In this document: in pieces, positions 36,087 to 47,706 of the stretch | How the letters are laid out: each line of letters begins with the position of its first letter | How positions within the stretch are numbered: position 1 is the stretch's first letter | Assembly: GCF_040687965.1 (NCBI RefSeq) | Contig: NZ_CP156084.1 | Location: 124,001 to 188,000 of the forward strand | Source of the DNA: Methylocystis echinoides | GTDB taxonomy: Bacteria; Pseudomonadota; Alphaproteobacteria; Rhizobiales; Beijerinckiaceae | Direction of reading: 5' to 3' | DNA: 64,000 nt | Program-made: the position numbers and the translations under genes | Notes under the pieces: generated by a model | Seen by the model: the letters and a program-made list of their open reading frames with translations, nothing else | What the model was told of the DNA's origin: nothing | Database searches by the model: none

Positions 36087-36120
36087 GTCCCCGCGCGCGG
36101 CGAGAGGGTCAGGGTGAGGG
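36087..36120. repeat. Palindromic intergenic repeat, family A variant
   Basis: GTCCCCGCGCGCGGCGAGAGGGTCAGGGTGAGGGG. It sits between two convergent genes and overlaps the last codons of the M14-family gene. Confidence 0.6.
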
Positions 36121-37164
36121 GCTTGCAGCTTGAAGCGGCGCGCCGTCCATGCCGATGCGGTGCATCAGATAGCACAGGCAATCCTGCTCCACCGCGCGCG
36201 GGTCGACGGTGAGCATGGCGGGGATGGCGGGGCATGTCAGCCTGATCTCGCCGCCGTCATAGGCGAAGCAATCTTCCGGCGGCGGGTGGTCGCCGTCGCC
36301 GGGCAGGATGTCGAGTTTCATCCCGGCGCGGGCGACGCCGAAAGTCGCCTCCGGCGACAGTTCGCTGAAGTTCAGACGGTCGATATCGGAGCGGAACATG
36401 AAATCCGCGGGCGACCCGTCAAAGGAAAAGGTCGATCCGGCCGGCGGCTTGACGATGGCGAAGGTGCGCAGGAGATCGACGTCATGCGCGGACGGCGCAT
36501 GTTCGGGCAGTTGGGTAATGGAGAGCGCCGCTTCGACGAGCTCGATCGCATGTTCGGTCGCCGAGCCCGCGCCCGCCTTGCCGCATTCGACGGTGATCGC
36601 GGGACAAAGATTGGCAAAAGCCGCCGCCTGCGTGCCGACGGGGCGCTGGAAATGCACCACGGTTCGCGAAAAGAGCTGCGCCAACGCGATGAAGTTGGGC
36701 TCCAGCCGCCGCACGCAGGCGTAATGTGGATTGAAGCCGGTGTTGTTGTGAATGTCGATGCTGGCGAAGAGACCGCGCGCCGCGGCGAAATCATAGACCC
36801 ATCGCGCCGTCGCCGCCTGCGGGTCGTCCGGATAGAGCGTGCCCGGCCAGACGCGATTGTAGTCGCGTTCGGCCGGCAGCGTGCGCACATTCGCCGCCGC
36901 CGCCCGCACATTGCCGATGTAGAGCAGCAGCGAACGGTTGAGCCCCCGCGCCGCATGGTGGCGCAACACCACCTGCATCGCTTCGAGCCCGCTATACTCG
37001 TTCCCATGCAGCAAGGTCGAAACGAACAGCGGATGCGGATCGCGCCCCGGCAGATCGAACAGCGTGGGGCCAGGAAGGATTTCGCTCAGTCTATTGGCGG
37101 GGCAGTCGAGAAAGCCTCCCGGCAGCCGATCCATCACCGCGCAGGGCGCGTCGATCACAGTCAT
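36109..37164 (-). CDS. M14-family zinc hydrolase (succinylglutamate desuccinylase/aspartoacylase-like)
   Basis: About 351 residues. Zinc ligands are visible in LLHGNEYSG (His and Glu) and IDIHNNTG (second His), and the catalytic Glu is in TVECGKAG. It presumably cleaves an amide bond of an N-acyl amino acid or gamma-glutamyl compound, but the substrate is unknown. I prefer the ATG at 37164, two bases after the upstream stop codon; the ATG at 37179 would overlap that gene. The tight linkage to the ATP-dependent carboxylate-amine ligase upstream suggests the pair builds and trims the same metabolite. The last residues (PSP) fall in a repeat. Confidence 0.82.
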   Translation of the reverse strand: MTVIDAPCAVMDRLPGGFLDCPANRLSEILPGPTLFDLPGRDPHPLFVSTLLHGNEYSGLEAMQVVLRHHAARGLNRSLLLYIGNVRAAAANVRTLPAERDYNRVWPGTLYPDDPQAATARWVYDFAAARGLFASIDIHNNTGFNPHYACVRRLEPNFIALAQLFSRTVVHFQRPVGTQAAAFANLCPAITVECGKAGAGSATEHAIELVEAALSITQLPEHAPSAHDVDLLRTFAIVKPPAGSTFSFDGSPADFMFRSDIDRLNFSELSPEATFGVARAGMKLDILPGDGDHPPPEDCFAYDGGEIRLTCPAIPAMLTVDPRAVEQDCLCYLMHRIGMDGAPLQAASPSP

Positions 37165-37166
37165 TC

Positions 37167-38570
37167 TCACAAGTCCCATTCATGCACGGGCGCGCCGCTG
37201 CGCTGTCCTTCGCAATAGGCGGCCATCATGGCATAGAGGTCGCCGTCGCAGGCGTCGAGTGCTTTGCGCTGCCAGGCCGCGCCGGTCTGTCCGGAGCGCA
37301 CGCGCGCCTCGATCACGTCGAGATAGCCGCGCGGGTCCGTGACGCCGAGGTCGTCCAACCCCTGCCGCGCCAACGGAAGCAGCCGCTCCGTGAGCAGCCG
37401 GTCGGCTCCGATCTCGCCCTCCCCCGGCCAGGTGAGCACGGCGTCGAGCCCATGACGCGCCGCCGTGTAAAAATTGCGCCGCGCCTCCTCGAAGGAGAGG
37501 CCGCCCGTTCCATTGTCGCCCTGGACCGCCAGCGCGCGGGCGAGCCCCAGGTAGAGCGCGGCGTTGGCCATCATGTCGACGAAGGTCGGGCCGGCCGGCA
37601 GAATGCGATGCTCCACCCGCAAATGCGGCGCGCCATCGGCGTCGAAGCCGATCAGTGGACGATTCCAGCGCCAGATGACGCCATTGTGCAGGCGCAAATG
37701 GCGCATCGCGGCCGGTTCGTCCTCGAAGTGGATCGGCAGCAGCGCGTCATAGTCGCGCAGGTTCTCCTCGAAGATTTCGAGCAGCGATTGTTGCGCGTAG
37801 CCCGAGCCCATGCAGACGCGCGCCGGGCCGGGGACGTCCACCGCCTGTTCGAAGAGCGGGATGCGCGTTTCTTCCCACAGCGCCTTGCCGAAGAGGAAAG
37901 GCGCATTGCCGCTTGCCGCGAGAATGGGGGCGGAGCCGGCGATGGAGGCGTTGTAATAGAGATGCGCGAGATCGGCGGGCGCCTTGAGATGCACCTGAAA
38001 GGAGGTCGTCGCGGCCTCGAGCATCACGTCTCGATGCTCGGAGACGAGATGTTCGCGACCCAATATGTCGACCTTGAGCGGCCGGCCCCCGCGCATGCGC
38101 AGCACCTCGCTGTTGAGCGCGTAATAACGGTTGAGCGGCGACATATTGGCGAGCGTCAGATCCTCGTCGCGGATCGTCGGCAACGTGCCGATCAGCACGA
38201 GATTGGCGTCATGGCGATGCGCGGCGTCGTTGCAGCGCCGCCACACCTCGGTCAGCGCGTCATGCGCCAGGCCGAGCGCGTCGCCTTCGAGCGGCAGCGG
38301 ATCGCAGTTCAGCTCTAGATTGAAGCGCGACAGCTCCGGCACGACGAGCGGGTTCGCGAGCGTCTCCAGCAGCAGTTGATTGATGGACGCCGGAAAGTAA
38401 TTGTGATCGACGATCCAGGTCTCGACTTCGAAGCCGAGCATGTGGCCCGCGCGCGAAAATTTGCCGGCCGCGAACAGAGCGCGGGCCATTTCGGTCTCTT
38501 CGGCGAGCCGGGCCCTGAAGCGGACCTTGTCTTCGCCGGTAAATCCGGTTGCCCTGATTTCCTCGCCCAC
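37167..38570 (-). CDS. Glutamate-cysteine ligase family protein (carboxylate-amine ligase)
   Basis: About 467 residues of the GCS2-like group (COG2170). Segments include GHMLGFEVETWIVD (the GxExE metal-binding motif), LELNCDPLPLEGDAL, and RVEHRILPAGPTFVDMMANAALYLGLARAL. Members join glutamate or related acids to amines with ATP; many do not make gamma-glutamylcysteine, so I avoid naming the substrate. The start is the GTG at 38568-38570, preceded by GGGAGGCGTC. The downstream M14 hydrolase gene begins at once, and the two form an operon. Confidence 0.85.
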   Translation of the reverse strand: MGEEIRATGFTGEDKVRFRARLAEETEMARALFAAGKFSRAGHMLGFEVETWIVDHNYFPASINQLLLETLANPLVVPELSRFNLELNCDPLPLEGDALGLAHDALTEVWRRCNDAAHRHDANLVLIGTLPTIRDEDLTLANMSPLNRYYALNSEVLRMRGGRPLKVDILGREHLVSEHRDVMLEAATTSFQVHLKAPADLAHLYYNASIAGSAPILAASGNAPFLFGKALWEETRIPLFEQAVDVPGPARVCMGSGYAQQSLLEIFEENLRDYDALLPIHFEDEPAAMRHLRLHNGVIWRWNRPLIGFDADGAPHLRVEHRILPAGPTFVDMMANAALYLGLARALAVQGDNGTGGLSFEEARRNFYTAARHGLDAVLTWPGEGEIGADRLLTERLLPLARQGLDDLGVTDPRGYLDVIEARVRSGQTGAAWQRKALDACDGDLYAMMAAYCEGQRSGAPVHEWDL

Positions 38571-38752
38571 GACGCCTCCCGCTCGCCCCCTTCTATTACC
38601 TAGAAGCGAGTCGGGGAAGCAGGCGCGACGATGCGTCGCGAACCCCTCCCCGCTCTCGTCGTGGCGAAGAATCTGCAAAGCTCACGTCTTGCCGCCTACC
38701 GCAAGACGAAAGGCCGCGCTAAGAGACGAATCAGAATAACAGGAGAGCCCGC

Positions 38753-39978: not shown

Positions 39979-40005
39979 GGACCGGCGTTGGCCGGTCCTT
40001 TTTTT
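39979..40005 (+). terminator. Intrinsic terminator of the DUF1328 gene
   Basis: GGACCGGC-gttg-GCCGGTCC followed by seven T residues: an 8-bp perfect stem with a tetraloop. The T-run touches the last codon of the convergent nadE gene. Confidence 0.9.
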
Positions 40006-42037
40006 ACGGAATGTCGTCGAGGCCGGCGAGCCACGCCTCCGCCGATGAATCGCTCGGCGCGCGCCAGTCGCCGCGTGGCGAGAGAGAGCCTCCCGAACTC
40101 ACCTTTGGCCCATTGGGCAGCGCCGAGCGCTTGAACTGGCTCGTCGCAAAAAAGCGCCGCAGGAAGACTGTGAGCCAATGCTTGATCTCATGCAGATCAT
40201 AGGCGCAGCGGTCGCTCTCCGCGATGACCGAAGGCCACTCGCCCGCACCCGCGTCGCGCCAGGCGCGCCAGGACAGGAACGCCGTCTTCGCTGGGTGGAA
40301 GCCGTAGCGCGTCGTGTAAAACAGATTGAAATCCTGCAGGGCGTAAGGGCCGACGAAAGCTTCCGTGCGCTGCGCCTCTTCGCCGGGGACGAGTTCGGGC
40401 GAGATTTCGGTTTTGAGAATATCGACGAGCACGGCGACCGTCTCAGGGCCAAAGCGCGCGTCGCGGGCGCACCAGCGGATGAGATGCTGGATGAGCGTCT
40501 TCGGCACAGATGCGTTGACGTTGTAATGCGACATTTGATCGCCGACGCCATAGGTGCACCAGCCGAGCGCCAATTCCGAGAGGTCGCCCGTGCCAATGAC
40601 GATGGCGTCATGAAAATTGGCGAGGCGGAACAGCAGCGAGGTGCGCGCGCCCGCCTGCACATTCTCATAGGTCGCGTCATACACCGTTTCGCCGCGCGCG
40701 GCGGGGTGGCCGATATCTTCGAGCATCTGTCGGCAGGCGGCCGAGACGTCGATCTCCTGCGCCGACACGCCCAGCGCCCGCATCAGCGCCCAGGCGTTGC
40801 TCTTGGTGCGGTCGCTCGTCGCAAAGGCCGGCAGCGTATAAGCGAGAATGTTTTCGCGCGGCAGACCGAGCCGCTCCATCGCCGTGACGGCGACGAGCAA
40901 GGCCTGCGTCGAGTCGAGCCCGCCCGACACGCCAATGACGACCTTTTTGATCCCAGCCGCGCGCAGCCTCTGCTCGAGCCCGTGCGACTGAATGTTGAAG
41001 GCCTCGAAGCAGAGTTCCGCAAGCCGCGCTTCGTCATTCGGCACGAAGGGGAAGCGCGGCACATCTCGCAAAAGCCCGAGATCGACGTCGCACGGGGCCA
41101 AGATCTCGAAGCCGACGCGGCGATACTGCACGGCGCCCGCTTCGACATCGGCGCAGTCGCCAAAGGTGCCCTGCCTCGCGCGCTCGGCCAGGAGGCGGCC
41201 GAGGTCGATATCCGCGACAACGAGCTGCGGCGTATCCGAGAAGCGCGGCGCGCGGGCGAGAACATCGCCCTGCTCATAGATCACGGCCTCGCCGTCCCAG
41301 GCGAGATCGGTTGTCGACTCCCCCTGCCCCGCGGCCGAGTAGAGATAGGCGGCGAGGCAGCGCGCCGAATGGGACGCACACAGCGTCTGGCGATAATCGG
41401 ATTTGCCGACGATGGCGTTGGACGCCGAGAGATTGAGCAGCACCGTCGCGCCGGAAAGCGCCGCGCGCGCCGAAGGCGCGATCGGGACCCAGACGTCCTC
41501 GCAAACCTCCATGTGGACGACGAGACCCGGGAAGTCGCGCGCGTCGAGCAGGACGTCCGAGCCAAAAGGCGCGCGCGTTCCGGCGACCGCGATCTCTTCT
41601 CCAGAAATGAAAGCGCCCGAGGCGAAATGACGGCGCTCGTAGAATTCACGGTAATTCGGCAGATAGGTTTTCGGCGTGACCGCGAGCAGGCGCCCGCGGA
41701 GAATGGCGACGGCGCAATTGTAAAGTCGGCCCTGATGGCGCAGCGGCGCGCCAACGACGATCACCGGATGCAGCGACCGCGACGCGGCGAGCAGCGTGGC
41801 GAGCGCCGTCTCGACCGCGCCAAGCAGCGCCTCCTGCTGCAAGAGATCGTCGATCGCATAGGCGGAGAGGCCAAGCTCCGGAAACAGCACGAGAGAAGCC
41901 CCGCGCCGATGCGCGTCTTCCGCCATTTCGATGGTGCGCGCCACGTTGAAGGCGGGATCGGCGACACGCACGCTCGGACAGGCGACGGCGGCGCGAACAA
42001 AGCCATGCGTGTGGAGCGAGAAGAAGGGGTGGGTCAT
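40004..42037 (-). CDS. nadE: Glutamine-dependent NAD+ synthetase
   Basis: A 677-residue two-domain enzyme that makes NAD from deamido-NAD. The N-terminal nitrilase-type glutaminase (residues ~1-290) shows the Glu-Lys-Cys triad in [27 protein letters not shown] and [12 protein letters not shown]. The C-terminal synthetase has the ATP-pyrophosphatase loop [18 protein letters not shown], and [28 protein letters not shown]. Length matches the long bacterial form. It stands alone between a terminator and the divergent formate dehydrogenase genes. Confidence 0.96.
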
Positions 42038-42310
42038 GAACTTGCGCGGGAGCGGCCCGAGGAATGGGCCGCCATAATGCCGGAAGCGGCGGCGCCTGTC
42101 ATGTTCCGCGCGGGGATAGGGCCGCGCCGCTCCGCCCGACTCATCCGTTTTTACGAAGAATGAATTTCACTTTTTCTATGATTTCCCGCCGACTTCCCTC
42201 GCTACACTGCCTTTTTGAAGAGTTCTAAAAAAGAGGCGCGTCTTGCCGGCGCGCAAACGGAGAGGCGCCCGGCCTCCGACGGCGCCGTTTTAAACGGGGA
42301 GGTTTCGCGA
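42038..42310. promoter_or_regulatory. Divergent intergenic region between nadE and the formate dehydrogenase operon
   Basis: 273 bases with no gene that I accept. The segment 42150-42235 is A/T-richer than the genome average and ends in short pyrimidine and A runs, as expected for promoters. An in-frame TTG at 42215 could extend the first formate dehydrogenase gene by 32 residues, but those residues are basic and not homologous. Confidence 0.35.
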
Positions 42311-43042
42311 ATGTGGTCCGAACTGCGCGCCTTGAAGGACGACATTGATTACGGGACCCCGCCGCGCGACGGCGCGCCGGTCACTTTGGAAATCGACGGC
42401 GTTTCCGTGACGGTTCCGGCCGGCAGCTCCGTCATGCTCGCCGCGGCCGCGGCGGGACGGGCCATCCCGAAGCTTTGCGCGACAGACATGCTCGAGCCAT
42501 TCGGGAGCTGCCGCGTCTGTCTCGTGGAGATCGAGGGACGCGGCGGCTTTCCCGCGAGCTGCACGACGCCGGTCGTCGACGGCATGAAGGTCAGCACGCA
42601 GACGGAAACGCTGCAGCGTCTGCGCAAGGGTGTGTTGGAGCTCTATCTCTCCGACTTCCCGCCAAGCGAGGTCGACGGCGGCTGGAGCGAATTTCACGAG
42701 ACGCTGAAGGCCGAGGGCGTGGCTTCGCATCCTTACGGCAAAGGGCAAAACCACTTCAGCGCCGGCATTGACGCGTCGAACCCGTATTTCTTGTTCGATC
42801 CGGCGAAATGCATCGTGTGCAGCAGATGCGTGCGCGCCTGCGCCGAAGTGCAGGGAACTTTCGCGCTGACAATCGCAGGCCGAAGCTTCGACTCCAAAGT
42901 CGTCGCGAGCCAGGATCAGCCGTTCTTTCAATCGGAATGCGTGAGCTGTGGCGCTTGCGTGCAAGCCTGCCCCAGCCACGCGCTGGTGGAAAAGAGCCTC
43001 TTCGAAGGAGAGTATGTCCATGCCGAACCCGTTGAAGCCTGA
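42311..43042 (+). CDS. Formate dehydrogenase iron-sulfur module (N-terminal part of FdsA as a separate gene)
   Basis: 243 residues that correspond to the NuoG-like N-terminal third of NAD-dependent formate dehydrogenase alpha chains. A [2Fe-2S] domain (EPFGSCRVCLVEIEG...ASCTTPV) comes first. Two [4Fe-4S] motifs near the C-terminus read CIVCSRCVRACAEVQG and CVSCGACVQACPSHA. Between them, where FdsA and NuoG carry the His-Cys3 cluster motif (HxxxCxxCxxxxxC), the sequence reads DFPPSEVDGGW, so that cluster is absent. The ATG at 42311 follows GGGGAGG. It overlaps the next gene by 29 bases in another frame, so the alpha chain is made as two coupled polypeptides. It should wire electrons from the Mo centre. 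Confidence 0.85.
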   Translation: MWSELRALKDDIDYGTPPRDGAPVTLEIDGVSVTVPAGSSVMLAAAAAGRAIPKLCATDMLEPFGSCRVCLVEIEGRGGFPASCTTPVVDGMKVSTQTETLQRLRKGVLELYLSDFPPSEVDGGWSEFHETLKAEGVASHPYGKGQNHFSAGIDASNPYFLFDPAKCIVCSRCVRACAEVQGTFALTIAGRSFDSKVVASQDQPFFQSECVSCGACVQACPSHALVEKSLFEGEYVHAEPVEA

Positions 43043-45170
43043 AAAATCGGTCGTCACGACCTGCGCCTATTGCGGCGTCGGCTGCGGCTTCAAGGCCGAG
43101 ACGCGCGGGGGCAAGATCGTGCGCATGACGCCATGGAAGGAAGGCAAGGCGAACCATGGCCACAGTTGCATCAAGGGCCGCTTCGCCTTTGATTACTACA
43201 ACCATCCCGACCGCGTCCGCACGCCGCTGATCCGCGCCTCGATCGACGAACCATGGACGCCGGTCTCCTGGGACGAGGCCTTCGCCTACGCCGCGAAGGA
43301 GTTCAAGCGTATCCAGGCCAAGTACGGCGTGAAGTCCGTCGGCGCGGTTTCCAGTTCGCGCTGCACCAATGAGGAAATCTTCCTCACGCAGAAATTCGCG
43401 CGCGCCGTTCTCGGCAACAACAATATCGACAATTGCGCCCGCATCTGCCACTCGCCGACGCAGTTTGGCCTGACGAACACGGTCGGCGCCGGCGCGGCGA
43501 GCCAGCACTTCGACTCGATCCTGCAGGCCGACGTGATCATGGTCGTCGGCGCCAATCCGACGGAAGGCCATCCGGTCTTCGGCTCGCTGATGAAGCGCCG
43601 CCTGCGCCAGGGCGCGAAGCTGATTGTCATCGATCCGCGCAAGACCGAGACGGTGGAATCGGCGCATTGCAAGGCAGACGTGCATCTCGCCATCCGCCCC
43701 GGCACCAATGTCGCGATCCTCGACAGCATCGCCCATGTCATCGTGCGCGAGAAGCTCTACAATGAGGAATTCGTGCGCGCGCGCTGCGAGGTGAACGAGT
43801 TCGAGAACTGGAAGGAGCTTGTCGGCTCCGACAAATATGCGCCGGAGGTCATCGGCCCGCTCGCCGGCGTCGATCCGGACGACATCCGCAAGGCCGCGCG
43901 CATTTACGCCGGCGGCCCCAACAGCGCCATCTACTACGGCCTCGGCGTCACCGAACATTCGCAGGGCTCGACGGGCGTGATGTGCCTCGGCAATCTCGGC
44001 CTTTCCTGCGGCATGCTTGGGCGCGAGGGCGTGGGCGTGAACCCGCTGCGCGGCCAGGGCAACGTTCAGGGCGGCAGCTGTCTCGGCAGCTGGCCGCATG
44101 TCTTCAGCGGCTATCGCTTCGTGACCGATTACGCCACCCGTTCCAGCTTCGAGGCGGAATGGGGCGTGACGCTCGACGCGGAGCCCGGGCTGCGCCTGCC
44201 CAACATGCTCGACGCCGCCGTCGCCGGCTCGTTCAAGGGCATATACATCATGGGCGAAGACCCGGTGCAGAGCGACCCGAACCAGCACCACGTCATCGCC
44301 GCGATGAAGAACATGGAGTGCGTCGTGCTCCATGACCTCTTCCTCAACGAGACGTCGAAATACGCCCATATCTTCCTGCCCGGTTCGTCGTCGCTGGAGA
44401 AGGACGGCACCTTCACCAACGCCGAGCGCCGCGTGTCGCGCGTGCGCAAGGTGATCGAGCCGTTGGCCGGCCTGCAGGACTGGGAGATCACCGTCAAGCT
44501 CATGAACGCCATGGGCTACAACGTCTCCTACGCCCATTCCGGCGAGGTGCTCGACGAAATCGCGCGGCTGTCGCCCAACTATCGCGGCATCAGCTTCGCG
44601 CTCATCGACCGAATAGGCTCTGCGCAGTGGCCCTGCAACGAGGAAGCGCCCGAGGGCACGGAGGTCCTGCATCGCGAGAAGTTCCCGCGCGCCAACGGTC
44701 TCGGCACCTTCATGCTCACCGAATATGTGCCGACCGCCGAGCGCACCAACGACAAATATCCGATGCTGCTCACCACGGGCCGCATCCTGTCGCAATACAA
44801 TGTCGGCACGCAGACGCGGCGCACGCCGAACTCGATGTGGCACCCCGAAGACATTCTTGAGATCAATGAGCAGGACGCGATGTCGCGCGGCGTGAAGGAT
44901 GGCGACTGGGTGAAGGTTTCGAGCCGCTTCGGCGAGATCGAATTGCGCGCGAAGATCTCGGAGCGCGTCAATCCGGGCGTCGTCTATACGACCTTCCACC
45001 ATGCGAAATCGAAGGCGAACGCCGTCACGTCGGATCTCTCTGACTGGGCGACGAACTGCCCCGAATACAAGGTGACGGCCGTCGACGTCGTGCGCACGAA
45101 CGGCCCCGCGGCCGATGTGGCGCGCGACGCCGCGAAACCGCGCATCGAGGAACTGGAGCCGGCGGAATGA
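43014..45170 (+). CDS. fdsA: Formate dehydrogenase catalytic (molybdopterin) subunit, C-terminal part of FdsA
   Basis: About 718 residues that oxidise formate to CO2 at a bis-MGD molybdenum or tungsten centre in the cytoplasm. The N-terminal [4Fe-4S] motif is CAYCGVGCGFKAE plus SCIKGRF. The metal-ligand Cys followed by His is in NCARICHSPTQFG, so this is a Cys, not a selenocysteine, enzyme. The pterin-binding blocks VVGANPTEGHPVFGS, GVNPLRGQGNVQGG, GEDPVQSDPNQHH and the C-terminal barrel (LTTGRILSQYNVGTQTRR) are intact. Starts at 43014 and 43020 are both possible; AAGGAG lies just before. No fdsG or fdsB gene is present on either side. The fdsD start overlaps its stop (ATGA). Confidence 0.93.
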   Translation: MSMPNPLKPEKSVVTTCAYCGVGCGFKAETRGGKIVRMTPWKEGKANHGHSCIKGRFAFDYYNHPDRVRTPLIRASIDEPWTPVSWDEAFAYAAKEFKRIQAKYGVKSVGAVSSSRCTNEEIFLTQKFARAVLGNNNIDNCARICHSPTQFGLTNTVGAGAASQHFDSILQADVIMVVGANPTEGHPVFGSLMKRRLRQGAKLIVIDPRKTETVESAHCKADVHLAIRPGTNVAILDSIAHVIVREKLYNEEFVRARCEVNEFENWKELVGSDKYAPEVIGPLAGVDPDDIRKAARIYAGGPNSAIYYGLGVTEHSQGSTGVMCLGNLGLSCGMLGREGVGVNPLRGQGNVQGGSCLGSWPHVFSGYRFVTDYATRSSFEAEWGVTLDAEPGLRLPNMLDAAVAGSFKGIYIMGEDPVQSDPNQHHVIAAMKNMECVVLHDLFLNETSKYAHIFLPGSSSLEKDGTFTNAERRVSRVRKVIEPLAGLQDWEITVKLMNAMGYNVSYAHSGEVLDEIARLSPNYRGISFALIDRIGSAQWPCNEEAPEGTEVLHREKFPRANGLGTFMLTEYVPTAERTNDKYPMLLTTGRILSQYNVGTQTRRTPNSMWHPEDILEINEQDAMSRGVKDGDWVKVSSRFGEIELRAKISERVNPGVVYTTFHHAKSKANAVTSDLSDWATNCPEYKVTAVDVVRTNGPAADVARDAAKPRIEELEPAE

Positions 45171-45460
45171 GCGTGACTCAGCAGAATACGGGCGGCGACA
45201 TCCCCGTGATGGCGCTCGACCGCATCGTACTGATGGCCAATCAGATCGGCGACTTCTTCGCGCCCTATCCGCCGGAGCGGCGCGCCGAGGGCATTCGCAA
45301 TCACCTGCGGACCTATTGGGATCCGCGCATGCGCGAGGAACTTCTGGCGCTGATCGACGCCGGCGGCGCGGGGCTCGCGCCGCATGTGATCGACGGCGCC
45401 AAGCTGCTCGTGGACGAGACGCAGAAAAAGCCCGGCTATTACGGACCGCCGAAGGCCTGA
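45167..45460 (+). CDS. fdsD: Formate dehydrogenase delta subunit
   Basis: 97 residues matching FdsD (LDRIVLMANQIGDFFAPYPPERRAEGIRNHLRTYWDPRMREEL, shown here in family order). FdsD is needed for maturation or stability of FdsABG-type formate dehydrogenases. Its ATG overlaps the fdsA stop codon. It is the last gene of this three-gene cluster, and a strong hairpin follows. Confidence 0.93.
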   Translation: MSVTQQNTGGDIPVMALDRIVLMANQIGDFFAPYPPERRAEGIRNHLRTYWDPRMREELLALIDAGGAGLAPHVIDGAKLLVDETQKKPGYYGPPKA

Positions 45461-45490
45461 ACGAAAAAGGGCGGGGTCTCCCCCGCCCTT
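45461..45490 (-). terminator. Intrinsic terminator between fdsD and hppA
   Basis: A 10-bp perfect stem AAGGGCGGGG / CCCCGCCCTT with a TCTC tetraloop. On the minus strand the stem is followed by TTTTTCGT, a good terminator for hppA. On the plus strand it can also serve fdsD, though the T-run is weaker. Confidence 0.9.
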
Positions 45491-45513
45491 CACGTCACGC
45501 GTTTGGCTTTCGA

Positions 45514-47706
45514 TCAGCCCCAATGCGCCAGAATGGCGAGCATCAGCAAAGCGACGATATTGGTGATCTTGATGGCCGGATTCACGGCCGGGCCGGCGGT
45601 GTCCTTATAGGGGTCGCCGACGGTGTCGCCGGTGACCGACGCCTTATGCGCCTCGGACCCTTTGAGGTGCTTCACGCCGTCCTTGTCGATGAAGCCGTCT
45701 TCGAAGGACTTCTTGGCGTTGTCCCAGGCGCCGCCGCCCGAGGTCATGGAGATGGCAACGAAGACGCCGTTGACGATCACGCCGAGGAGCAGCGCGCCCA
45801 CCGCAGCGAGGGCGTTGGCCTTGCCGCCGCCGAGCAGCAGCACGACGATGAACATCACCAGCGGCGCCGCGACCGGCAGCAGCGAGGGGATGATCATCTC
45901 CTTGATCGCCGCCTGGGTCAGCATATCGACGGCGCGGCCGTAATCCGGACGGGCGGAGCCGTCCATGATGCCGGGCTTCTCCTTGAACTGACGGCGCACT
46001 TCCTCCACGACCGAGCCCGCCGCGCGGCCCACCGCCGTCATGGCGATGCCGCCGAAGAGGTAGGGGATGAGGCCGCCGAAGATCAGGCCCGCGACGACGA
46101 AGGGATTCGACAGGCTGAAGTCGATGTTCTCGAGGCCCTTGAAGAAGGACACGCCCGTCGCCGCAAAGTGCTTGATGTCGTTCGTATAGGCTGCGAACAG
46201 CACGAGCGCGCCGAGGCCCGCCGAGCCGATGGCGTAACCCTTGGTGACCGCCTTGGTCGTATTGCCGACGGCGTCGAGTGCGTCGGTCGACTGACGGACT
46301 TCCTTCGGCAGGCCCGACATTTCGGCGATGCCGCCGGCGTTGTCGGTCACCGGGCCGAAGGCGTCGAGCGCGACGATCATGCCGGCGAGGCCGAGCATCG
46401 TCGTCACCGCGATCGCCGTGCCATAGAGGCCGCCGAAATTATAGGTGAGGATGATGCCGAGCACGATCACCACGGCCGGCGCGGCAGTCGACTCGAGCGA
46501 CACGGCGAGGCCCTGAATGACGTTGGTGCCATGGCCCGTCACCGACGCCTGAGCGATCGACACGACCGGGCGCTTGCCCGTGCCGGTGTAATATTCGGTG
46601 ATGTAGACGATGGCGCCCGTCACGATCAGGCCGATGACGCCGCAGACGAACAGGCCGATGCCGTGAATCGGCTCGCCATTGACCTTGCCGACCTCGCCGA
46701 GGCCGACGGTGAACAGCGTCGCGAGGAACAGGCCCACGATCGACAGAACGCCCGCCGCAATGAGGCCCTTGTAGAGCGCGTCCATGATCGAGTCGTTCTT
46801 GAGGCCGATCTTCGCGAAATAAGGCGCCGCGAACTTGCCCCACTCCGTGTCGTCCTCGCCGAGCTTGACGAAATAGGTGCCGGCGATGGAGGTCAGGATG
46901 GAGAGGCCGCCGATGGCGAGCGGATAGAGCACCGCGCTGGAAAGCCCTTCCTGGCCGGCGAAGAAAATCGAGGCCAGAACCATCGTGGCGACGACGGTGA
47001 CCGCATAGGTCTCGAAGAGGTCGGCCGCCATGCCCGCGCAGTCGCCGACATTGTCGCCGACGTTGTCGGCGATGGTCGCCGGGTTGCGCGGATCGTCCTC
47101 GGGAATGCCCGCCTCGACCTTGCCGACGAGGTCGGCGCCGACGTCCGCGCCCTTGGTGAAGATGCCGCCGCCGAGACGCGCGAAGATCGAGATCAGCGAG
47201 GCGCCAAAGCCGAGCGCCACCAGCGCGTCGACGACGACGCGGTCGGCCGCCGTATAGCCGGCGAACCAGGTGAGGATTGCATAATAGACCGCGACGCCGA
47301 GCAGCGCGAGGCCGGCGACGAGAAGTCCGGTGATGGCGCCCGCCTTGAAGGCGATGTCGAGGCCGCCCGCCAGCGACTGCGTCGCCGCCTGCGCGGTGCG
47401 GACATTAGCGCGCACCGAGACGTTCATGCCGATATAGCCCGCCGCGCCCGAGAGCGCCGCGCCGATCGCGAAGCCGAAAGCGACCGCCCAGCCGAGCAGG
47501 ATGACGAGCAGCACGAAAATCACGCCGCCGACAATGCCGATGGTCTTGTACTGGCGGTTGAGATAGGCCTGCGCGCCTTCAGCCACGGCGCCGGAAATCT
47601 CCTGCATGCGCTGCGAGCCGGGATCGGCCTTCAGCAGCTCCTGCGACGTCTTTACGCCGTAGGCGACGGACATCAGTCCGAAGACGATGGTCAGAAACAA
47701 AACCAT
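45514..47706 (-). CDS. hppA: K+-insensitive membrane H+-pyrophosphatase
   Basis: 730 residues with about 16 membrane helices. The enzyme pumps protons using pyrophosphate hydrolysis. The substrate motif [23 protein letters not shown] is complete. The [10 protein letters not shown] segment has Lys where K+-dependent enzymes have Ala, which assigns it to the K+-independent H+-pumping class. It is common in Hyphomicrobiales and methanotrophs, where it recovers energy from biosynthetic PPi. It is convergent with the formate dehydrogenase cluster. Confidence 0.96.

Follow-up and report, generated by a model that had tools for sequence, protein, structure and literature searches.

Known formate dehydrogenases and the split locus

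The described formate dehydrogenases closest to a three-gene unit found in a 64,000-nucleotide stretch of the Methylocystis echinoides genome (contig NZ_CP156084.1, positions 124,001–188,000; hereafter the window) are the FdsABGD enzymes of R. capsulatus and C. necator (structures 6tg9 and 9wxb). In the R. capsulatus enzyme (RcFDH), the electron chain was described as running from the bis-molybdopterin guanine dinucleotide (bis-MGD) through clusters A1, A2, A3, A5 and B6 to flavin mononucleotide (FMN), with the A4 cluster, ligated by His117, Cys121, Cys124 and Cys130, lying off this chain at the FdsA–FdsA dimer interface (PMC7171172). Radon et al. (2020) bring up oxygen tolerance alongside inter-protomer transfer (PMC7171172), and a later review places electron transfer within each tetramer and not between tetramers (PMC13397495). 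The tungsten enzyme MeFDH1 of Methylorubrum extorquens (7vw6, 7e5z) is reported to have no counterpart of A4 (the cluster is named A5 there) and to be a single alpha–beta heterodimer with a diaphorase beta subunit, for which four alpha–beta salt bridges are named (PMC10869683). Methylosinus trichosporium OB3b carries an orphan alpha gene, fdhA2 (METTOv1_220028), described as 81% identical to fdsA (PMC3615186). ForCE of Bacillus subtilis is described as menaquinone-linked, with an FdsA-like alpha subunit and a partner other than FdsGB (PMC13397495).

The unit in the window encodes a small subunit (FdsA-N), a large subunit (FdsA-C) and FdsD, and the comparison presented here revealed that this split, A4-free FdsA is a real, conserved branch of the formate dehydrogenase family. 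A search of the open literature, with subscription papers outside its reach, found no published account of a split or A4-free FdsA. The cassette is filed as a split, A4-free Fds subfamily, set apart from the standard FdsABGD enzymes.

Family assignment and cluster ligands

The large protein matched TIGR01591 (Fdh-alpha) with 883.7 bits (cut-off 666) and the third protein matched PF11390 (FdsD) with 76.9 bits (cut-off 27), and the small protein contained Fer2_4 and 4Fe-4S domains. The FdsA-type chains 9wxb_B and 6tg9_A were the best PDB matches of both halves. The small subunit of 243 amino acids (aa) carries the [2Fe-2S] (A5) domain and the ligands of two [4Fe-4S] clusters (A3 and A2), and lacks the A4 ligands; the large subunit holds the A1 [4Fe-4S] cluster and the bis-MGD/Mo domain, with the Mo-ligand Cys encoded at 43446–43448.

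FdsA structures carry SDHPLDCLTCAANGDCELQD at the place where the small protein carries SDFPPSEVDGGWSEFHE; therefore, all four A4 ligands are absent rather than shifted. The His-x3-Cys-x2-Cys-x5-Cys motif of FdsA is replaced by DFPPSEVDGGWSEFH, and F116, P117, G124, W125, S126, E127 and H129 of this loop region did not vary across 40 aligned rows of split proteins. An earlier note on this DNA, made from the letters alone, had reported the motif as replaced and had allowed that its ligands might be displaced but present; alignment to FdsA bore out the former, and the latter was rejected because the loop retains no Cys. The remaining 12 Cys of the small subunit were kept in no fewer than 146 of the 148 aligned split rows, in agreement with its statement that the [2Fe-2S] and both [4Fe-4S] motifs are intact. 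These 148 rows comprised 28 loci and 120 database proteins (the best 120 of 4370 matches), some proteins being present twice. In the large subunit, A1 Cys 1–3 were kept in 24 of 25 split rows (with a gap in the remaining row), A1 Cys 4 and the Mo Cys in all 25, and the Mo Cys, Lys and Arg pair of FdsA were conserved. The cap-loop Trp that contacts FdsD was found in 25/25 split and 54/54 fused rows, and was Pro in 5/5 MeFDH1-type rows. The unit thereby shows the FdhF-like Mo/bis-MGD subunit with A1, the A2, A3 and A5 ligands and FdsD with the cap Trp of the Fds family, and lacks the one-chain alpha (~950 residues), A4 and, at this locus, fdsGB.

Since A4 sits outside the Mo–FMN chain, the split enzyme keeps the main-path ligands and loses the protomer bridge. 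A shortened electron path, suggested earlier, is therefore unsupported, as the ligands of A1, A2, A3 and A5 are all kept. With A4 and the dimer-interface loop gone, an A4-bridged dimer of the RcFDH type is probably not formed, and the split unit probably works as a single protomer. An incomplete A4 motif was also seen in 16 of 96 fused FdsA rows, each with fdsB in the same locus (16/16); the loop retained no Cys in 10 of them, one in 4 and two in 2.

Conservation and phylogeny of the split form

From one similarity search the best 80 loci were retained, the first 19 of which (L011–L029) were split. The out-of-frame junction between small and large genes was kept in 26/28 relatives; in the other two, L024 and L025, it could not be scored because the large frame is interrupted. 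Stand-alone chains were 238–249 aa long in 115 of the 120 listed database proteins. As the database search admitted only proteins of 0.55–1.75 times the query length, fused chains could not appear among these 120. The His–Cys3 motif was found in 0/148 aligned split rows, including 0/120 of the database proteins. The ratio of nonsynonymous to synonymous substitution rates (dN/dS) against eight same-genus copies was 0.04–0.08 for the small gene, 0.055–0.18 for the large gene and 0.10–0.26 for fdsD, by the simple method of Nei and Gojobori (NG86), with dS near saturation in some small-gene pairs.

These results leave hardly any room for the view that the split is an artefact or a decaying gene, produced by a sequencing or mutational frameshift in a canonical fdsA. 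That view could draw on the interrupted large frame of the two relatives, on a stop-containing remnant in one Methylocystis genome (G006) and on a short fragment in another genome (G028). However, an identical junction in 26 relatives, the uniform chain length and lack of the motif among the listed database proteins and dN/dS values far below 1 all speak against it. Sequencing error or pseudogene formation was thus rejected on junction conservation and low dN/dS, and with it the earlier caution that an error check might restore one frame. The interrupted large genes of L024 (Methylocucumis oryzae) and L025 (Methylococcaceae UBA662) may reflect either error or decay.

The phylogenetic position was evaluated using an 84-row tree with the A4-loop columns removed, which comprised 25 split rows, 54 fused FdsA and five MeFDH1-type outgroup rows; 4/28 split loci (large part incomplete) and 42/96 fused loci were omitted. 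The outgroup was labelled MeFDH1-type on the grounds of the beta subunit in one of its genomes and of the clustering of these rows. The split rows formed one clade (Shimodaira–Hasegawa-like approximate likelihood ratio test 99), sister to all fused FdsA (97), and grouped with FdsA apart from the MeFDH1-type outgroup (support 100). The A4 state needed six changes on the tree, three of them forced by starred branches. The earlier suggestion of a variant enzyme is supported. Linkage to fdsB may be ancestral, because, of the three basal split branches, two hold the fdsB-linked split loci that the tree contains (L017, L027 and L028). A single origin of the split form is probable, and its first partner was probably its own FdsGB.

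Diaphorase genes in the genome and in relatives

No fdsG or fdsB was found at the split locus of the window. The genome (G000, 4.35 Mb) contains one complete fdsGBACD operon at G000:C1:839.0–845.0 kb, 0.67 Mb from the cassette, in which FdsG, FdsB, FdsC (FdhD/NarQ family) and FdsD were confirmed by Pfam and C1:840.0–843.0 kb encodes a canonical fused FdsA whose A4 loop is intact. Only two Complex1_51K proteins were found in the genome, namely FdsB and one adjoining a NuoG-like match at 2.70 Mb. The earlier statement that fdsG and fdsB are lacking thus holds for the locus and fails for the genome, where absence of B and G was rejected; its alternative, that these subunits lie elsewhere, proved correct, and the genome search it proposed recovered both fdsGB and a second, fused fdsA.

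Among relatives, 7/36 loci (L017, L027, L028, L230, L231, L234 and L235) have fdsB no more than 4.6 kb from the split genes, which is not an unbiased rate because eight of the loci (L230–L237) were selected for their likeness to L017 and L028. The fdsB gene lies directly upstream in L017, L027, L230 and L234, is convergent in L231 and belongs to a longer operon in L028 and L235. In six of the seven, fdsG stands just ahead of fdsB; the contig of L027 starts inside fdsB. Two further genomes, G072 and G075, carry an fdsB that is not followed by an alpha gene, and the split alpha, on another contig, is the sole Fds-type alpha found in either; these are candidate in-trans pairs of split alpha and FdsB. 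Canonical-type FdsB, whole or partial, was found in 23 of the 25 distinct genomes holding a split gene, complete or as a fragment (29 entries less four judged duplicates by identical coordinates). Among 14 non-Methylocystis genomes with a split alpha, it was the sole Fds-type alpha found in seven, and both kinds were found in seven.

The fdsB operon of L028 (L028:62–7887), L235 and L166 (G072:C145) also contains an LldD/MftD-family FMN-dependent hydroxyacid dehydrogenase, FdhD and a valine–pyruvate-transaminase-like protein, and a hydroxymethylglutaryl-CoA-synthase-like gene is divergent from it in L028 and L235. Another arrangement was seen at L156:5149–9510 (−) in G023:C3, where a 1453-aa open reading frame (ORF) joins 2Fe-2S, Fer4_20/Pyr_redox_2 (GltD-like), 4Fe-4S and formate-dehydrogenase-type Mo domains; this ORF may encode a formate dehydrogenase that carries an NAD(P) module in a single chain. 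It adjoins a second fused FdsA-type gene, which has an NADH-G_4Fe-4S_3 region, and the arrangement of matches is similar in G001:C81 (L157).

Residues facing the diaphorase

The alpha residues of the MeFDH1 salt bridges correspond to small-subunit positions 100, 115, 141 and 191. D115 was kept in 147/148 split rows and R191 is Arg in the window protein and in all 28 split loci. Position 141 was Arg in 96/96 fused and 5/5 MeFDH1-type rows. The beta residue facing it, Glu531 in MeFDH1, corresponds to Asp475 of FdsB in the window genome; residue 475 was acidic in 82/88 fused-FdsA loci, and Ser in 6/88 and in L167 and L168.

Where a split small subunit could be paired with its own FdsB, P141 occurred with K (L017), A (L027) and K (L230) at FdsB 475, and R141 with D (L028), D (L235), E (L231), E (G072) and D (G075), the exception being K in L234. 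Over these nine cognate pairs R stood with an acidic residue in 5/6 and P with a non-acidic one in 3/3, and position 141 of the small subunit seems to co-vary with residue 475 of its own FdsB. The Fisher value of 0.0065 for this co-variation is only suggestive, because it comes from a set that did not yet include L230, L231, L234 and L235, and because the rows lack independence. Two Methylocystis copies, L142 and L145, have Arg at 141, which may represent re-adaptation to resident FdsB.

Distribution and mobility

Full split copies were found in 11/37 Methylocystis genomes, with a fragment in one more (G017). One genome (G006) holds three full split cassettes, one of them on a 365-kb contig, and a remnant with stop codons (L013, L147, L148 and L150), and one copy is carried on a Methylocystis rosea plasmid. 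Across 396 Pseudomonadota genomes, an FdsA-type match (E 1e-60) was obtained in 108 and a separate short frame in two, both Methylocystis. Of 101 genomes from the order of Methylotetracoccus, 69 gave a match; the gene was clearly split in the seed genome only, and one other match was a 217-aa frame with no class assigned. For the order around L017 and L028, 12 of 296 sampled genomes had the short frame (E 1e-90).

The cassette adjoins hppA in only two of the 15 same-genus genomes examined, the window genome and G025. In 9 of the 13 without a cassette at this site, less than 1.5 kb separates nadE from hppA and no cassette stands between them, the distance being ~0.1 kb in three of the nine. No gene outside the unit recurred in more than 3 of the 19 compared split loci. 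Because of the restricted hppA site, the plasmid copy, the three copies of G006 and the non-recurrent neighbours, the small–large–fdsD cassette appears to be an accessory element that moves by horizontal transfer.

The space between nadE and hppA (window 42038–45513) differs across the genus, being filled by the cassette or by other sequence or reduced to ~0.1 kb. GTP cyclohydrolase I was seen near the split genes in 3/19 loci (L012:4835–5521, L021:6860–7528 and L022:6877–7488), in differing orientation.

Proposed function and alternative explanations

The reading we favour, with a probability of about 0.6, is that small–large–fdsD forms an A4-free Fds-type core, and that the solo cassette lost fdsGB, spread horizontally, docks on resident FdsGB and reduces NAD+. 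The cassette would then be an accessory Mo formate dehydrogenase core, with FdsA supplied as FdsA-N (A5, A3, A2) and FdsA-C (A1, bis-MGD-Mo). Formate would be oxidised at the Mo–bis-MGD site of the large subunit, electrons would pass along A1–A2–A3–A5 into the small subunit and exit at A5, as in FdsABGD, and FdsD would cap the cofactor domain. FdsC must come from elsewhere because the cassette is without fdsC, and would be drawn from the resident fdsGBACD. The solo cassette would most likely dock in trans on the FdsGB of that operon. FdsGB is favoured as the partner, in trans for solo cassettes, because of the linked fdsB genes, the G072 and G075 pairs and the co-occurrence in 23/25 genomes. 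As a tentative extension, which we consider possible and short of even odds, the cassette may be a plug-in catalytic module: mobile, A4-free, single-protomer, passing among methanotrophs, methylotrophs and further bacteria with its diaphorase left behind, able to dock on any host FdsGB and with the 141/475 interface re-tuned after transfer.

Several observations weigh against docking on resident FdsGB. Position 141 was P in 106, R in 31, G in 8 and other or gap in 3 of the 148 split rows, and position 100 was basic in 92/96 fused vs 74/148 split rows. In the window genome, the small subunit has Pro141 and the sole canonical FdsB keeps Asp475; the 141–475 salt bridge therefore cannot form, which could mean no docking on resident FdsB. 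Where P141 stands beside a linked fdsB, it is always with a changed FdsB (K or A). No fdsB was seen near the split genes at 29/36 loci, several of them on short contigs. G072 and G075 are fragmented metagenome-assembled genomes (MAGs), and FdsG was not found in G075. In two MAGs of unknown completeness, G071 (L022) has a split alpha with FdsB, FdsG and fused FdsA not found, and G067 (L018) yielded an FdsG fragment only, with FdsB not found. Co-occurrence with FdsGB is confounded by one-carbon lifestyle and by near-universal fused FdsA in the genus; it was therefore dropped as proof of sharing and kept as support only. The AlphaFold model of the small subunit, with a mean predicted local distance difference test score of 59.9, was too poor to use.

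The interface changes can also be read as a departure from the diaphorase altogether, the A5 end of the solo cassette donating to ferredoxin, flavodoxin or a quinone-linked partner independently of NAD. Solo loci without a linked diaphorase, Pro or Gly at position 141 in 114/148 split rows, the relaxed position 100 facing a resident FdsB that keeps Asp475, and the lack of FdsB and FdsG among the finds in G071 fit such a change of acceptor. However, Pro141 is also present at L017, L027 and L230, beside fdsB, and so does not signal that the diaphorase was lost; finding these loci weakened the reading in which the loss of Arg141 proves another acceptor. Moreover, identity in the 2Fe-2S loop region is nearly as high between split and fused proteins as among fused ones (0.75 vs 0.78), no carrier gene recurs beside the cassette, and the Arg141 of L142 and L145 looks as if re-adapted to resident FdsB. 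We consider this explanation unlikely. The different acceptor proposed in the earlier note is accordingly weakened by the A4-free alphas that stand beside a diaphorase (MeFDH1, 16/96 fused FdsA and 7/36 split loci), and keeps some probability because the diaphorase-facing Arg, otherwise invariant, is lost in most split rows.

The cassette may also be a conditional isoenzyme, a second catalytic alpha unit exchanged onto FdsGB in particular conditions, such as low Mo, low formate or O2 stress, with a role that would lie in kinetic or O2 properties that come from the lack of A4 and not in a new reaction. This refines docking on resident FdsGB, and we hold it somewhat doubtful, though less so than a change of acceptor. 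It is consistent with the presence of FdsB in all 12 examined Methylocystis genomes that have a cassette, whole or fragmentary, with a canonical FdsA with A4 loop beside FdsB in all ten checked of those twelve, with purifying selection on the cassette genes and with the oxygen tolerance raised by Radon et al. when discussing inter-protomer transfer (PMC7171172). Against it, the split alpha is not always accessory, because it was the sole Fds-type alpha found in half of the non-Methylocystis genomes.

Gene layout and neighbouring genes

The coordinates of the unit and its surroundings are collected in Table 1. Two in-frame ATG codons are available for the large gene. ATG 43014 gives 718 aa and a 29-nt overlap with the small gene, and ATG 43020 gives 716 aa and an overlap of 23 nt; an equivalent of the latter recurs as the start in relatives, and its spacing from AAGGAG is better than that of ATG 43014. 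The NuoG-like frame of 243 aa, the molybdopterin frame of about 718 aa and the 29-base overlap noted earlier were all recovered, the overlap being counted from ATG 43014, and fdsD follows with an ATGA overlap as had been described. The large gene leads directly to fdsD, with no fdsC between them.

Table 1. Positions of the split cassette, its sequence elements and its flanks in the window, with related fused loci
Feature	Position	Strand	Remark
Small subunit (FdsA-N), 243 aa	42311..43042	+	ATG 42311, stop 43040–43042; ORF reading, profile and structure matches
Large subunit (FdsA-C)	43020..45170	+	716 aa from conserved ATG 43020; other frame than small gene
fdsD, 97 aa	45167..45460	+	ATGA overlap with large-gene stop; PF11390
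GGGGAGG, ribosome-binding-site-like, ahead of small gene	42296..42302	+	sequence reading
AAGGAG, ribosome-binding-site-like, inside small gene	43005..43010	+	9 nt ahead of ATG 43020; sequence reading
DFPPSEVDGGWSEFH loop, at position of FdsA His–Cys3 (A4) loop	42653..42697	+	alignment
Pro141 codon, equivalent of MeFDH1 alpha Arg190 (diaphorase salt bridge)	42731..42733	+	alignment
Flank outside unit: NAD+ synthase (nadE)	40004..42037	−	genus comparison
Flank outside unit: membrane pyrophosphatase hppA	45514..47706	−	genus comparison
Fused FdsA with incomplete A4 motif and fdsB in locus	L030–L034, L036, L049, L056–L058, L070, L073, L075, L078, L079, L085

Elsewhere in the window, the protein encoded at 36112–37179 (−) had no NCBIfam match at E 0.001, and its neighbour at 37170–38678 (−) gave only a weak glutamate–cysteine-ligase match below the cut-off.

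Comparison with known systems

A natural A4-free clade, together with A4-free fused FdsA, makes the roles of A4 testable by comparison, beyond mutation alone; the roles concerned are dimerisation, protomer-to-protomer transfer and oxygen tolerance. A two-chain, three-gene core, if it borrows a resident diaphorase, would offer a compact and useful module for oxidising formate and reducing CO2. The cassette also illustrates how methanotrophs can add enzymes at the last step of methane oxidation.

The unit resembles HoxU in having a stand-alone NuoG-like small protein of similar length, and the Joint Genome Institute names some relatives HoxU. A HoxU of a hydrogenase was rejected, since the small protein scored 158 bits against an NCBIfam cut-off of 333 and its partner is a formate dehydrogenase large subunit. 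ForCE differs in its partner, which is ForE, whereas the third gene of the cassette encodes FdsD (PF11390); no ForE-type partner gene was present in the unit or its immediate flanks (NAD+ synthase and pyrophosphatase), to which that search was confined. Like fdhA2 of OB3b (PMC3615186), the cassette gives a methanotroph that already has a full fds operon an extra alpha without B and G. Unlike it, the cassette is split, fdhA2 being described as a single alpha copy and apparently lying outside the split clade (PMC3615186).

MeFDH1 is likewise described without the dimer-interface cluster that the split enzyme lacks (PMC10869683). However, MeFDH1 has one alpha chain and no FdsD, and MeFDH1-type rows are ~35% identical and fall outside the split/FdsA clade. 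A tungsten formate dehydrogenase of the MeFDH1 type was thus rejected on the tree position with FdsA and the presence of fdsD. The likeness is closest to FdsABGD, with which the cassette shares the A1, A2, A3 and A5 ligands, the Mo Cys, Lys and Arg pair, the cap Trp and FdsD. It differs from FdsABGD in an FdsA split into two out-of-frame chains, in having no His–Cys3 A4 and no fdsC before fdsD, and in having no fdsGB at the locus.

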